Below, piece after piece: positions 22,549 through 39,609 of a stretch of 40,030 nt of DNA (positions are counted from its first letter, which is position 1; the number at the start of each line of letters is the position of its first letter). Location: the NCBI GenBank assembly GCA_020846885.1, contig JADLDC010000054.1:1-40030 (forward strand), given 5' to 3'. This stretch comes from Acidobacteriota bacterium. Its GTDB lineage: Bacteria; Acidobacteriota; Blastocatellia; Pyrinomonadales; Pyrinomonadaceae. The notes under the pieces are model-generated. The model searched no databases. It was not told the origin of the DNA and was given only the letters and a program-made list of their open reading frames with translations. The position numbers and the translations under genes are program-made.

Positions 22549-22579
22549 AGCGGCGGACCGTTTCCGGCGGGCTGCTTCC

Positions 22580-22678
22580 CTTTCGTGATATTCGTGTCTT
22601 CATTTCGCTAGTTTCGTGGTAATGGACGAAGATCCATCCCGCGAAATCCACGAATCAAGACATGAAAATTCACGACGG
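22580..22678. repeat. ~42 bp-arm imperfect inverted repeat built of TTCGTG motifs
   Basis: Left arm TTTCGTGATATTCGTGTCTTCATTTCGCTAGTTTCGTGGTAAT; right arm ATCCCGCGAAATCCACGAATCAAGACATGAAAATTCACGAC is its imperfect reverse complement. Confidence 0.85.
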
Positions 22679-24758: not shown

Positions 24759-24786
24759 TGCCAACCAATAAATGAAAAACGGCTTC

Positions 24787-24828
24787 CGTTTCGCGGCATT
24801 CGTGTCTTCTTTCGTAAGCTTCGTGGTT
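24787..24828. repeat. Single-arm copy of the TTCGTG-motif repeat
   Basis: TTTCGCGGCATTCGTGTCTTCTTTCGTAAGCTTCGTGGTT; motif starts at 24790/24799/24811/24820 (spacing 9-12-9). Confidence 0.75.
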
Positions 24829-31678: not shown

Positions 31679-32698
31679 CTATCCCATTGAGTTCAAATAA
31701 TCGCGCACCATTTTCATATCTTCCCACGTATCGCGTTTTTTGTGCGGGTCGCGAAGGAGATATGCCGGGTGGAACGTAGGCATTACCTTAACGCCAAAAT
31801 AATCCTGAAACCTACCGCGGACCTTTGTGATGCCGTCTTTGGTATCAAGGAGATTGTGCAAGGCCGTGTTGCCCATCACGACTATCACCTTTGGTTTGAT
31901 CACTGCTATCTCGCGGAGCAGGAACGGCCGACATGTGTGTGCCTCGGCCAGCGTCGGGGTCCGATTTCCCGGCGGGCGGCAGCGGTTGATGTTGCCTATC
32001 GCCACTTCTTCACGCGTCATCCCTATCGCCTCGATTATCTTGTTCAAGAGCTGGCCGGCCCGGCCAACGAACGGCTCACCTTGTTTGTCTTCATCCGCAC
32101 CGGGAGCCTCGCCAATGAACATCAGGTCGGCATTAAAATTTCCGGTCGTCTGAACGATCTGCGTCCGCCCTTCAGACAGCGGGCACCGCGTGCAGTTCCC
32201 AATGTCCGCCCAAATATCCGCCATTGTCTCGACGGAATCAGCACGAGTCGGCGTGGTCTCGCCAATCGGCAATTCACCAATCGAAGGATTCGCCGTCGTC
32301 TCCGTCGATTCTTTCGCTTTTGTCATATCATTGTCAGGAGCCGTCAGTCGATCAGTATCAACACCCGATGCGGCAGTCGGTTTTCGTTTTGAAAGCGAAG
32401 GAAGCGCCGCCAACCTGGCACCGGCCCTCGGCACGGCGGCCGGAGCCGGCAGGTCAGAACTACTAGCATTTCCGGGGTGTCGAGTCTCGATATAGCCGGA
32501 CGTTGATCTGATATCAGGCGCCGCACCGCCCGCTAACGCAGGTGGTACTGACTTGGCCGCGACGCTCCGGGATCTCGTATTGGCAGCGGAGAGTTGCGGC
32601 AGATCTACGTTCAGCGCCTCAACCCCAAGCTCCTGCAAATACAGGACGTGTTCCTTTACATCGGCTATTAGTTCAGCTATTTCCAGATCTCGCGGCAT
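31679..32698 (-). CDS. Family 4 uracil-DNA glycosylase with long low-complexity N-terminal linker
   Basis: [84 protein letters not shown] ... [24 protein letters not shown]. Confidence 0.94.
32525..32552 (-). repeat. Single REP copy inside the UDG ORF, encoding [10 protein letters not shown]
   Basis: ACCGCCCGCTAACGCAGGTGGTACTGAC matches ACCACCCGCTACCGCAGGTGGTTCTGAC in coaBC. Confidence 0.85.
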
Positions 32699-34025
32699 TG
32701 GCAGGATTCGATCTTCGCAAATTTATTATTTCATCCAATATCTTATCAGCCAGCGCACGCTTTGACATAAGTCCGAGAGCGGTCTCGCCCTGAGGCGTCA
32801 ATATGGTCGCAATATTCGTATCGGTGTTGAACCCGGCGCCTTGAGCAGTGATGTCGTTGGCAATGACCATATCGAGGTTCTTTTTGGCCATTTTGCTCTT
32901 CGCGTATTCGATCACATCGTTGGTTTCGGCCGCGAAGCCGATGACCAATTGTCGCCCGCTTCGCCGTTTTGAAACCTCCGACAAAATATCCGGCGTCTTT
33001 TTCAACTCAAGTAAAAATCCGTCTTTGCCTTCCTTTTTGATCTTCATGTCCGCCACATTTGCGGGAGCATAATCCGCGACCGCCGCCGCGCCGATAAAGA
33101 CGGTCGCATCTGCGACCTTTTCCATCACGGCGTCGAACATTTCCTGTGCCGAAATTGCCCGGATCAATTCAATTCCGTCAGGCGGCTCAACACTGGTCGA
33201 TGCCGCAACCACCGTGACCTTCGCCCCGCGGTCCCGCGCCGCCGCGGCCACGGCAAACCCCATCTTCCCGGATGAATGGTTAGAAATAAACCGCACCGGA
33301 TCAATAGCCTCCCGCGTTCCGCCGACAGTGATGAGGATGTGCTCACCCGCCAAGTCAGAACCACCTGCGGTAGCGGGTGGTTTAACCTCGCCGTCGCTCA
33401 ATACTGCCCCATTTCCGGAACGACCAATTATCGTGCCGCCTGCGGATCGCTGGCTTACCCTTAAACCACCCGCTACCGCAGGTGGTTCTGACAATACCGT
33501 CAGCGCCTGGCGAACGATATTCTCAACATCCTCCAGTTTCCCCGTTCCGACCGTTTTGCATGCAAGCTCTCCTGCCACCGGATCGACAAACCTCACACCA
33601 TCGGCCTTTAACCGTTCGAGGTTCCGCTGCGTCGCCGCGTGCTCCCACATCGTCACGTTCATCGCTGGAGCGATCAAAACCGGGGCCGTCGATGCGAGAT
33701 ATGTCGATGAAAGAAAATCGTCGGCGATACCGTTGGCGAATTTGGCGATAATATTCGCCGTCGCCGGCACGATCAGCAGCAGATCGATCTCTTGCGAAAA
33801 ATTGATGTGCGCGATCGGATCAGGATTTGCCGGGTCGTAATCGTCCACGATCACATGCCTGTCCGTCAGCGCCCGAAAGGTAAGCGGCCGCACAAACTCC
33901 GTAGCATGCCGCGTCATCGCCACGCTCACCTCGCAACCCGCCTTCTGCAAATGCCGCATCACCTCGATCGCCTTATAAGCCGCGATCCCGCCGGTTACGC
34001 CTAGTCCAATCCGATATTCAGCCAT
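32673..34025 (-). CDS. coaBC: Bifunctional phosphopantothenoylcysteine decarboxylase / phosphopantothenate-cysteine ligase
   Basis: YRIGLGVTGGIAAYKAIEVMRHLQKAG, LIAPAMNVTMWEHAATQRNLERL; ILITVGGTREAIDPVRFISNHSSGKMGFAVA, VIGFAAETNDVIEYAKSKM. Confidence 0.96.
   Translation of the reverse strand: MAEYRIGLGVTGGIAAYKAIEVMRHLQKAGCEVSVAMTRHATEFVRPLTFRALTDRHVIVDDYDPANPDPIAHINFSQEIDLLLIVPATANIIAKFANGIADDFLSSTYLASTAPVLIAPAMNVTMWEHAATQRNLERLKADGVRFVDPVAGELACKTVGTGKLEDVENIVRQALTVLSEPPAVAGGLRVSQRSAGGTIIGRSGNGAVLSDGEVKPPATAGGSDLAGEHILITVGGTREAIDPVRFISNHSSGKMGFAVAAAARDRGAKVTVVAASTSVEPPDGIELIRAISAQEMFDAVMEKVADATVFIGAAAVADYAPANVADMKIKKEGKDGFLLELKKTPDILSEVSKRRSGRQLVIGFAAETNDVIEYAKSKMAKKNLDMVIANDITAQGAGFNTDTNIATILTPQGETALGLMSKRALADKILDEIINLRRSNPANAARSGNS
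33354..33492. repeat. BIME-like REP pair inserted in the interdomain linker of coaBC
   Basis: GTCAGAACCACCTGCGGTAGCGGGTGGTTTA (33354-33384) and its exact reverse complement TAAACCACCCGCTACCGCAGGTGGTTCTGAC (33462-33492); each arm also folds into a ~9 bp stem hairpin. Confidence 0.97.
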
Positions 34026-34028
34026 ATG

Positions 34029-34692
34029 TGTAGCCCGTAGGTGTCAGTAGCCCGCACGGGTCAGTAGCCCGCACGTAAGTAAGGGCTCCCTTGACCACCA
34101 GTCAATTCAATCCAAAGTCGGCAACTCGCCACCCTGCCCATTAACCACGTACTCGACCGCCGCACTGACATGATCGTCCGACCAAAGGTATCTGGTGCTC
34201 CCGTGCCTACTCCATACCTTTTGATCCTTACCGACAAGACCGCTCCCCCGAAGCTCCTTGGTCGCGTACGCCTTGAAGCTATCCATCATACGTTCCGGCG
34301 CCGCGGAATTGGAAACGACGACGTGGACGTGGTTCGACCGAACGTTGATGGCTATTAGCACGTAGCCGCGAACTCGACAGACTTCGCGTATCGCAGCTTC
34401 CACGATCTGTCTTTCCGCAGTCCCGAGCAGAAACATCTCGTGTTTGAGGAGGGTTTTTCTTCGCTGTTCCTTTTCGGTGTTCGGTGCTATTTTCTGTGTT
34501 CCATAACGATTGTAGTATCGACGATCTACCGAGCCGCGCTGGTCGCCGTGTAACCATGTGCCGTAGCATCGGAATGTGATAAGGAAGCCCTTTGCGACGG
34601 ATCTATCCTGAAATTCTATGTAATCACGCTTCATGTTAAGGTTGCAGTGCTCGTTGGTGGCAATGAGCCCTTACTTACGTGCGGGCTACTGA
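34029..34692. mobile_element. RAYT-type unit: Y1/IS200-like transposase gene bracketed by inverted REP sequences
   Basis: GTCAGTAGCCCGCACGTAAGTAAGGGCT at 34060-34087 and exact reverse complement AGCCCTTACTTACGTGCGGGCTACTGAC at 34665-34692; two more partial tandem REP copies at ~34029-34060. Confidence 0.9.
34107..34634 (-). CDS. REP-associated tyrosine transposase (RAYT; Y1_Tnp / IS200-like)
   Basis: FLITFRCYGTWLHGDQRGSVDRRYYN, HUH motif RSNHVHVVVSN, downstream FKAYATKEL containing the likely catalytic Tyr. Confidence 0.92.
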   Translation of the reverse strand: MKRDYIEFQDRSVAKGFLITFRCYGTWLHGDQRGSVDRRYYNRYGTQKIAPNTEKEQRRKTLLKHEMFLLGTAERQIVEAAIREVCRVRGYVLIAINVRSNHVHVVVSNSAAPERMMDSFKAYATKELRGSGLVGKDQKVWSRHGSTRYLWSDDHVSAAVEYVVNGQGGELPTLD

Positions 34693-34697
34693 CACGG

Positions 34698-36307: not shown

Positions 36308-36643
36308 ATGCAGCCTACACTTTTTGATCCGCCTAAGGCAGCCGAATCTTTGGATGAAGTGATCCTTTACGCACTCGGCGAATTCCAGTCGCGCGGGCAT
36401 AGGCTGGCGGATCGTGAATTGGCACTCGACCGGCTTCGTCACGCTATTGACCGGGCGTGCGAAAAGCTCTGCGTAAGGCCGTTTTCGGATGATGCTATCG
36501 CTTCGCTGCTAAAAGAGGCCGGTGCCGCGGTTGTTGAGATACCGGATTATTTTGCCAAACGCCCGTTTCGCGTGACCGTTCCGTCCGCGTTGGCTTCGGA
36601 CGCCTTGACTGTTTACCATCGGATAAATGCCAAACATTCCTGA
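36308..36643 (+). CDS. Hypothetical protein
   Basis: Overlaps start of the NUDIX gene by 17 bp; MQPTLFDPPKAAESLDEVILYALGEFQSRGHRLADRELALDRLRHAIDRACEKLC; no recognised family. Confidence 0.65.
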   Translation: MQPTLFDPPKAAESLDEVILYALGEFQSRGHRLADRELALDRLRHAIDRACEKLCVRPFSDDAIASLLKEAGAAVVEIPDYFAKRPFRVTVPSALASDALTVYHRINAKHS

Positions 36644-37157
36644 AACCATCTCGACCGAAAGGATTTACAACGGCAAAGTCTTTGATATACGCATCGACGC
36701 TATTCGCGAGGGCAATATCGAATACAAACGCGAGATAGTCGTCCACAAAGGAAGCGCGGTCGTGATTCCCGTGTTCCCTGACGGCACTGTCGCCCTGGTG
36801 CGTCAATACCGCCACGCGGCGGGCAAATATTTGCTTGAGATCTGTGCCGGAACATTGAACGCCGGCGAAGACCCCGAGATCGGAGCACGGCGTGAACTGG
36901 AAGAAGAGATAGGCGTTACGGCCGGCAAATTGGAAAAGCTTTGCGAATTTTATGTCTCGCCCGGCTTTCTGACCGAAAAAATGCACCTTTTTCTCGCAAC
37001 TGACCTGACCGAAACCGCCCAAAACCTCGGAGTCGACGAGATATTAACCGTCGAGCGGTACTCGCTCGACAATCTGCTTGAAATGATTCGCCGCGGCGAG
37101 ATCGAGGATGCCAAGACCATCATCACCATCCTCTTATGTCAGAACCGGGAGCGATAG
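36627..37157 (+). CDS. NUDIX hydrolase (ADP-ribose pyrophosphatase-like)
   Basis: VALVRQYRHAAGKYLLEICAGTLNAGEDPEIGARRELEEEIGVTAGKLEKLCEFYVSPGFLTEKMHLFLATDL; Nudix box GX5EX7REXXEEXG. Confidence 0.93.
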   Translation: MPNIPETISTERIYNGKVFDIRIDAIREGNIEYKREIVVHKGSAVVIPVFPDGTVALVRQYRHAAGKYLLEICAGTLNAGEDPEIGARRELEEEIGVTAGKLEKLCEFYVSPGFLTEKMHLFLATDLTETAQNLGVDEILTVERYSLDNLLEMIRRGEIEDAKTIITILLCQNRER

Positions 37158-37279
37158 CGACTGGGTTCCTGGATCTATCAAACGCAGAGACGGGAAAGTC
37201 TACAGGACTGGGTGGAGATAACGGCTAGGCTCGTACGCGGTGAGACAAGAACCCAGTCTCTATCGCTCCTGGTTCTGAC
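37138..37279. repeat. BIME-like REP pair overlapping the NUDIX 3' end
   Basis: GTCAGAACCGGGAGCGATAGCGACTGGGTTC at 37138-37168 and near-perfect reverse complement GAACCCAGTCTCTATCGCTCCTGGTTCTGAC at 37249-37279 (2 mismatches). Confidence 0.95.
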
Positions 37280-38297: not shown

Positions 38298-38308
38298 AGC
38301 GTATTGTC

Positions 38309-38435
38309 CGTCAAACTTTAGTTTGACGCTCAGAATGTCCACCAAACTTTAGTTTGACGAACGTTGGCGAGCGAGCGAAGAGCAACAAACTAAAGTTTGT
38401 TGGACGGTTGAGTAACAAACTAAAGTTTGTAGGAC
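38309..38435. repeat. Four copies (two forward, two reverse) of the CAAACTTTAGTTTG palindrome in the rpsI-rpsB spacer
   Basis: TGTCCGTCAAACTTTAGTTTGACG, TGTCCACCAAACTTTAGTTTGACG, CAACAAACTAAAGTTTGTTGGAC, GTAACAAACTAAAGTTTGTAGGAC. Confidence 0.95.
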
Positions 38436-39528: not shown

Positions 39529-39535
39529 AAATGTA

Positions 39536-39588
39536 CAACAAACTTAAGTTTGTTGATGAAGATGATAAGGGACAAACTGAAGTTTGTC
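39536..39588. repeat. Two further palindromes of the CAAACTnnAGTTTG family in the rpsB-tsf spacer
   Basis: CAACAAACTTAAGTTTGTTG (perfect 20 bp palindrome, 39536-39555) and GACAAACTGAAGTTTGTC (39571-39588). Confidence 0.93.
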
Positions 39589-39609
39589 TTACATATTTGG
39601 AGCAATATA

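Follow-up and report, generated by a model that had tools for sequence, protein, structure and literature searches.

The window analysed here is a stretch of 40,030 nucleotides from an Acidobacteriota genome. On its minus strand it contains coaBC, an essential coenzyme A gene, which carries, between the regions for its two enzyme domains, two REP units in inverted orientation. A RAYT-type transposase gene lies beside coaBC, and a further REP of the same family is present in a uracil-DNA glycosylase ORF. The features are listed below, all on the minus strand.

32673 to 34025, minus: coaBC, phosphopantothenoylcysteine decarboxylase / phosphopantothenate-cysteine ligase, 450 aa (translation, Pfam, PDB relative 6tgv CoaBC)
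33498 to 34013, minus: CoaC decarboxylase domain, residues 5-176 (Pfam Flavoprotein PF02441)
33354 to 33491, minus: in-frame insert of coaBC, residues 179-224, SEPPAVAGG...KPPATAGGSD (translation, inverted-arm analysis, AlphaFold)
33461 to 33492, minus: REP unit 1, sense, reading SEPPAVAGG (inverted arms, dispersed copies)
33386 to 33460, minus: 75-nt spacer separating the REP units (inverted-arm analysis)
33354 to 33385, minus: REP unit 2, inverted, antisense, reading PPATAGGSD (inverted-arm analysis)
32799 to 33353, minus: CoaB ligase domain, residues 225-409 (Pfam DFP PF04127)
34107 to 34634, minus: RAYT-type Y1 transposase beside coaBC (Pfam PF01797), with its own inverted ends at 34057-34088 and 34665-34696
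32525 to 32546, minus: solitary REP of the coaBC family, in the N-terminal region of the uracil-DNA glycosylase ORF (31679-32698), reading VPPALAGG; the coding model gives no verdict there

The position proposed in the original prediction, in frame and precisely between the two CoaBC domains, agrees with the Pfam boundaries, which leave residues 179-224 to the insert. The translation runs ...VRQALTVL-SEPPAVAGG...KPPATAGGSD-LAGEHILITVGGTREAID. The insert comprises 138 nt, or 46 codons, within the REP pair at 33354-33492, whose outermost base (33492, the sense-strand G of GTCAG) completes the Leu178 codon as its third position. The two arms (33354-33385 and 33461-33492) are 100% complementary, as had been predicted, and 32 nt long each instead of 31 bp, with a spacer of 75 nt; the spacers between the REP units differ in the CoaBC genes of the relatives G006 and G008. 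The 22-nt REP core folds as a hairpin, and each arm is a hairpin in its own right, again as predicted, with one G-T wobble. In the RNA fold of the insert the arms pair with each other as one long stem (-95.3 kcal/mol, z -8.0).

The AlphaFold prediction (28 CoaBC sequences) is a disordered spacer for the insert: both domains score mostly >90, and residues 184-221 have a pLDDT <50. Apparently, the palindrome is read out as a floppy spacer between two enzyme domains. An assembly artefact is ruled out because the pattern recurs across many genomes, although several contigs from the relatives G016, G017, G024 and G029 end in or near the CoaBC linker.

The repeat family and its transposases

The consensus of the REP unit is GTCAG(A/T)ACC(A/G)CCTGCGnnAGCGGG(T/C)GG. 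Far from being confined to coaBC, the arm is dispersed over the genome, with about 142 sites compared to 13 for a reversed control when two mismatches are allowed, in an assembly that is incomplete (78.7%). The arm core has no match in dinucleotide-shuffled windows, and together with the genome counts this rules out a chance palindrome. Within the genus, the arm is found in 38 of 41 genomes, and the control pattern hits no genome more than once. Of 150 genomes sampled from the class, 86 contain the REP when the head of the unit is included, most of them from the same family as the source genome. G137 reaches the highest count in this sample (up to 261 sites), and outside the source family the REP is found patchily, in f3 and in a few genomes of f2. 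The relative G026 has a linker peptide identical to that of 'Chloracidobacterium sp. UBA3360' (L076 and L217) and appears to correspond to it. The other hits that carry a name are Pyrinomonadaceae, which places the window probably on the Blastocatellia side of Acidobacteriota.

RAYT-associated elements are characterized by a hairpin core with many similar copies and by a RAYT gene that has the same REP at its borders; both are found here. Contig C396 of the same genome encodes a RAYT (L158:2858-3379) that has the coaBC REP directly at both sides, and a second RAYT on contig C274 lies among close variants of it. From this arrangement, we infer that the family is mobilised by a RAYT of the C396 type. 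The transposase gene next to coaBC was considered as a source of the insert and rejected; it lies, within 34057-34696, between inverted ends GTCAGTAGCCCGCACGTAAGTAAGGGCTC, a GTAG-like REP unlike that of coaBC, and it is therefore probably not the mover of the insert.

Further repeats are present in the window. A second REP family sharing the GTCAGAACC head is found at 1191-1269 and 37138-37171; it reads SEPGAIATG in genes of relatives, including the CoaBC linkers of G003 and G033, and its copy at 37138 provides the stop codon of the ORF 36627-37157. A family of hairpin repeats around CAACAAACTTTAGTTTGTTG / GTCAAACTTTAGTTTGACG is located at 483-570, 38305-38435 and 39533-39592, with several copies near the window ends. 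A TTCGTGATATTCGTGTCTTC repeat is present in two copies (22574-22604 and 24782-24812) and is apparently of the family whose reading in the CoaBC linkers of related genomes is TKSHEETRN.

The CoaBC linker as a recurrent landing site

Within the genus, the linker could be read in 33 CoaBC proteins. Many of these hold recognisable repeats, which are of differing kinds. The PPAxAGG REP is found in G000, G006, G008 and G032; TAETQRRGE...LGVSAV and variants in G005, G007, G010, G011, G013, G018, G020 and G034; VQSPKSKVQ...TLD in G001, G014 and G025; TGDRRQETGD in G012, G026 and G027; NAERG / TKSHEETRN / NPKSEIRNPQS in G009, G021 and G029; and SEPGAIATG and LLRKEGS in G003, G033 and G036. Several of these sister linkers contain inverted arms far above the level of shuffled sequence, and their reading frames are open. 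On a CoaBC tree built without the linker, the repeat kind changes at least 15 times across 24 species, or 20 times with unassigned linkers included, counts that are approximate because the repeat kinds were labelled by eye on a tree that was a quick one. Even the closest sister of the genome analysed here, G005 (support 100), differs from it in linker kind. A pooled linker search, in which the matches listed were mostly of one family, revealed for the first half of the query that some repeats are dispersed, above all the LLRKEG type among the matches listed, and documents the dispersion of the non-REP repeats in part. CoaBC proteins from other families in the class have short tandem-repeat linkers at the same position (NPQSAIRNPQS, SPDSRLPTPDS and NLKSQISNLK in L127, L128 and L129).

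The CoaBC linker is a recurrent landing site that is occupied by different repeat families in sister species. The original description of the palindrome as a new linker in an essential enzyme is correct in that an insertion has been tolerated, but calling it new is too simple for a site with this history. A long linker is also not a universal property of CoaBC: in 62 bacterial sequences, nearly all from other phyla, the median linker length is 34 residues, compared to 55 in the genus (range 37-98). Almost the entire genus has long linkers at this position, of varying sequence, so a long form may be retained, and one could assume that a longer spacer improves CoaBC and that any flexible repeat serves this purpose. 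We consider this adaptive explanation unlikely, because the length varies from 37 to 98, a few species (G022, G002) have near-ancestral short linkers, and the same elements are present in many unrelated genes, as expected for tolerated mobile DNA. One essential linker refilled repeatedly by unrelated repeats makes the growth and change of linkers in essential enzymes testable, by comparison and by simple complementation.

Reading phase of repeats inside genes

For the phase test, REP sites sampled from search listings were clustered in fetched stretches of the source genome and of its relative G011. For each cluster, 150 bp per side were scored with a periodic Markov model trained on long ORFs, a simple coding model that served for the gene calls, and it was asked whether the gene runs through. 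Three weak matches with odd loops (L143:4877, L181:6434, L213:4038) were left out of this test. In-frame clusters inside genes accounted for 41 of the 111 sampled (25/53 in the source genome and 16/58 in G011). Set against these, 6 clusters in the source genome and 11 in G011 have both flanks coding on one strand but are out of frame or contain a stop; in a part of these cases the REP may lie in the gap that separates two adjacent genes.

The first unit is read in a single phase in 40 of the 41 in-frame clusters, whichever strand is sense, and the per-unit count is 76 of 78 with three weak matches included. In this phase a sense REP encodes (S/E)PPAxAGG and an antisense REP encodes PPAxAGG(S/T)D. 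At least one other phase is free of stops in 19 of the 41 clusters, and if open phases were equally likely, the log10 P of the result would be about -7.5, a value that somewhat overstates independence because the two genomes share four target genes. An internal control is provided by the loop alleles. GTAA, which is a stop in the PPAxAGG phase, occurs 19 times elsewhere and never in frame; GTGA occurs in frame three times (PPAHAGG and PPAHASG being antisense readings, stop-free there). The compatibility of the family with coding, which had been suggested from the coaBC insert, is borne out by these counts.

The affected genes, named after their Pfam domains, include in the source genome UvrD, MutS2, AlaRS, PurL, MetRS, LysRS, the ribonucleotide reductase large subunit and RluD; acetyl-CoA synthetase and alpha-2-macroglobulin have two in-frame sites each and an M1 peptidase has three. 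A GH92 glycosidase gene on contig C275 (L150:5513-6095) contains eight consecutive REP units, about 195 stop-free codons. In G011, PurH, DnaE, UvrA and chorismate synthase are further targets. In the proteins of the source genome, 20 of 25 insertion sites lie outside Pfam domains, compared to 11.1 expected (P 5e-5, with approximate Pfam boundaries). REP sites mark natural permissive positions in aminoacyl-tRNA synthetases, polymerases and CoaBC.

In-gene REPs are inherited with decay while the frame is kept. The RluD insert of G006 is equal in length; its palindrome letters have changed and its frame is intact. RluD and AlaRS hold the REP in G014 too; and MetRS of G005 has a different repeat at the linker where MetRS of the source genome has the REP. 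In the orthologue comparisons, no clean empty site for defining insertion junctions was found, as the corresponding positions are occupied by other repeats or by decayed ones. PurL of the source genome (L145) has two PPAxAGG units more than the G005 copy (L375), and its extra stretches resemble in-frame tandem duplications.

REP colonisation of coding DNA is lineage-specific and near-absent in G014 and G137: 3 of 57 clusters are in frame in G014, all three in the PPAxAGG phase, compared to 0 of 15 in G137 and 0 of 5 in G148. The same REP is abundant in G014 (L381-L438) and in G137 (L439-L451), with nearly all copies intergenic.

The phases of the REP other than PPAxAGG yield Cys/Trp- or Arg/Trp-rich peptides or stops, which suggests that purifying selection on the protein accounts for the one-phase rule. 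The near-invariant phase, and the fact that paired inserts begin and finish flush with codons, could also be explained by the insertion machinery, if the transposase joined the element only at codon-related targets without any selection at the protein level. This appears slightly less probable still than an adaptive linker. The two bases preceding GTCAG vary freely, and target choice therefore fails to account for the phase; the G of GTCAG is constant in non-coding copies as well and hence belongs to the element. Moreover, a target motif that is codon-phased on both strands would be odd, and the machinery would not bring about the lack of the GTAA allele at in-frame sites. The strong hairpins within essential genes recall the mobile palindromes reported for Magnusiomyces mitochondria, which are transcribed yet skipped in translation, but skipping is hardly credible here, because an element that is skipped has no need to be open, to have a length divisible by three or to keep to one phase, and the REPs do all three.

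Selfish RAYT/REP insertions that purifying selection filters into permissive linkers, with the coaBC insert as a translated disordered spacer, are in our view very probably the correct explanation. Accordingly worded as a sequence of events, a non-autonomous REP pair of a RAYT-associated family would have inserted between codons of the CoaBC interdomain linker, while the family spread genome-wide, presumably moved by a RAYT. In the cell, the insert would be translated as a disordered 46-residue spacer (SEPPAVAGG...PPATAGGSD). Copies persisting in genes would be those with a frame-keeping length that lie mostly in linkers or loops and present the Pro-Ala-Gly phase on either strand, and purifying selection on the protein would remove copies in other phases. 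The original prediction had left open whether the coding compatibility arose by design or by selection; selection fits the data and design is unneeded. A bolder and rather doubtful extension, although a better prospect than any of the alternatives above, is that the REP was shaped at the DNA level as a two-way Pro-Ala-Gly linker module and that, in time, several repeat families rebuilt the linkers between domains of essential enzymes across the lineage. If so, both strand readings would be soluble linkers and genes would be usable as landing sites.

Comparison with known palindromic elements

REPtrons (RAYT/REP) share with the present family the dispersed short palindromes, as singles or inverted pairs, and a Y1 transposase gene with this REP on both sides (C396). 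A mostly extragenic location is part of the REP definition (PMC12306157); of the clusters sampled, more than one third lie inside genes in the source genome and G011, compared to 3 of 57 in frame in G014 and 0 of 15 in G137. Intragenic REPs with an unpaired terminal GTAG or CGTC tag have been described as singles, dimers and clusters within ORFs, including DNA repair genes, with linkers and loops proposed as tolerant sites and with REPs flanking tyrosine transposases (Di Nocera 2013, PMC3733652). The coaBC REP resembles them in its singles, pairs and clusters within ORFs, its linker or loop sites and its transposase flanking, but it begins with GTCAG(A/T)A, neither a GTAG nor a CGTC tag. The main text of that paper (PMC3733652), its supplementary list apart, mentions neither the one-phase rule nor a linker at which unrelated families replace one another. 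In a limited literature search, we found no earlier description of a two-strand one-phase rule with a stop-allele control, nor of a turnover of unrelated repeat families at one essential linker; either may have been described before.

Perfect inverted repeats also occur inside translated mitochondrial genes of Nematomorpha (PMC6649704). Those are apparently maintained in place, whereas the insertions described here are dispersed and decay while the frame stays.

In-frame palindromes in working genes are already known (PMC10969869, PMC3733652). The closest likeness is to the Rickettsia palindromic elements (RPE; Ogata 2000, 2002), which, according to later descriptions (PMC10969869, PMC3733652, PMC6649704), are mobile palindromes that add an in-frame peptide to many unrelated working genes and whose repeat identity decays over time while the gene stays open. 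The coaBC REP family likewise places in-frame palindromes in unrelated working genes. As far as those descriptions go, it differs from RPE in host phylum (Acidobacteriota) and in tag, probably in sequence, and by being a short RAYT-bordered unit that is read in a single phase whichever strand is sense. It allows the conversion of mobile DNA into protein sequence to be counted outside Rickettsia, with many insertions, a measurable phase rule and a stop allele as internal control.
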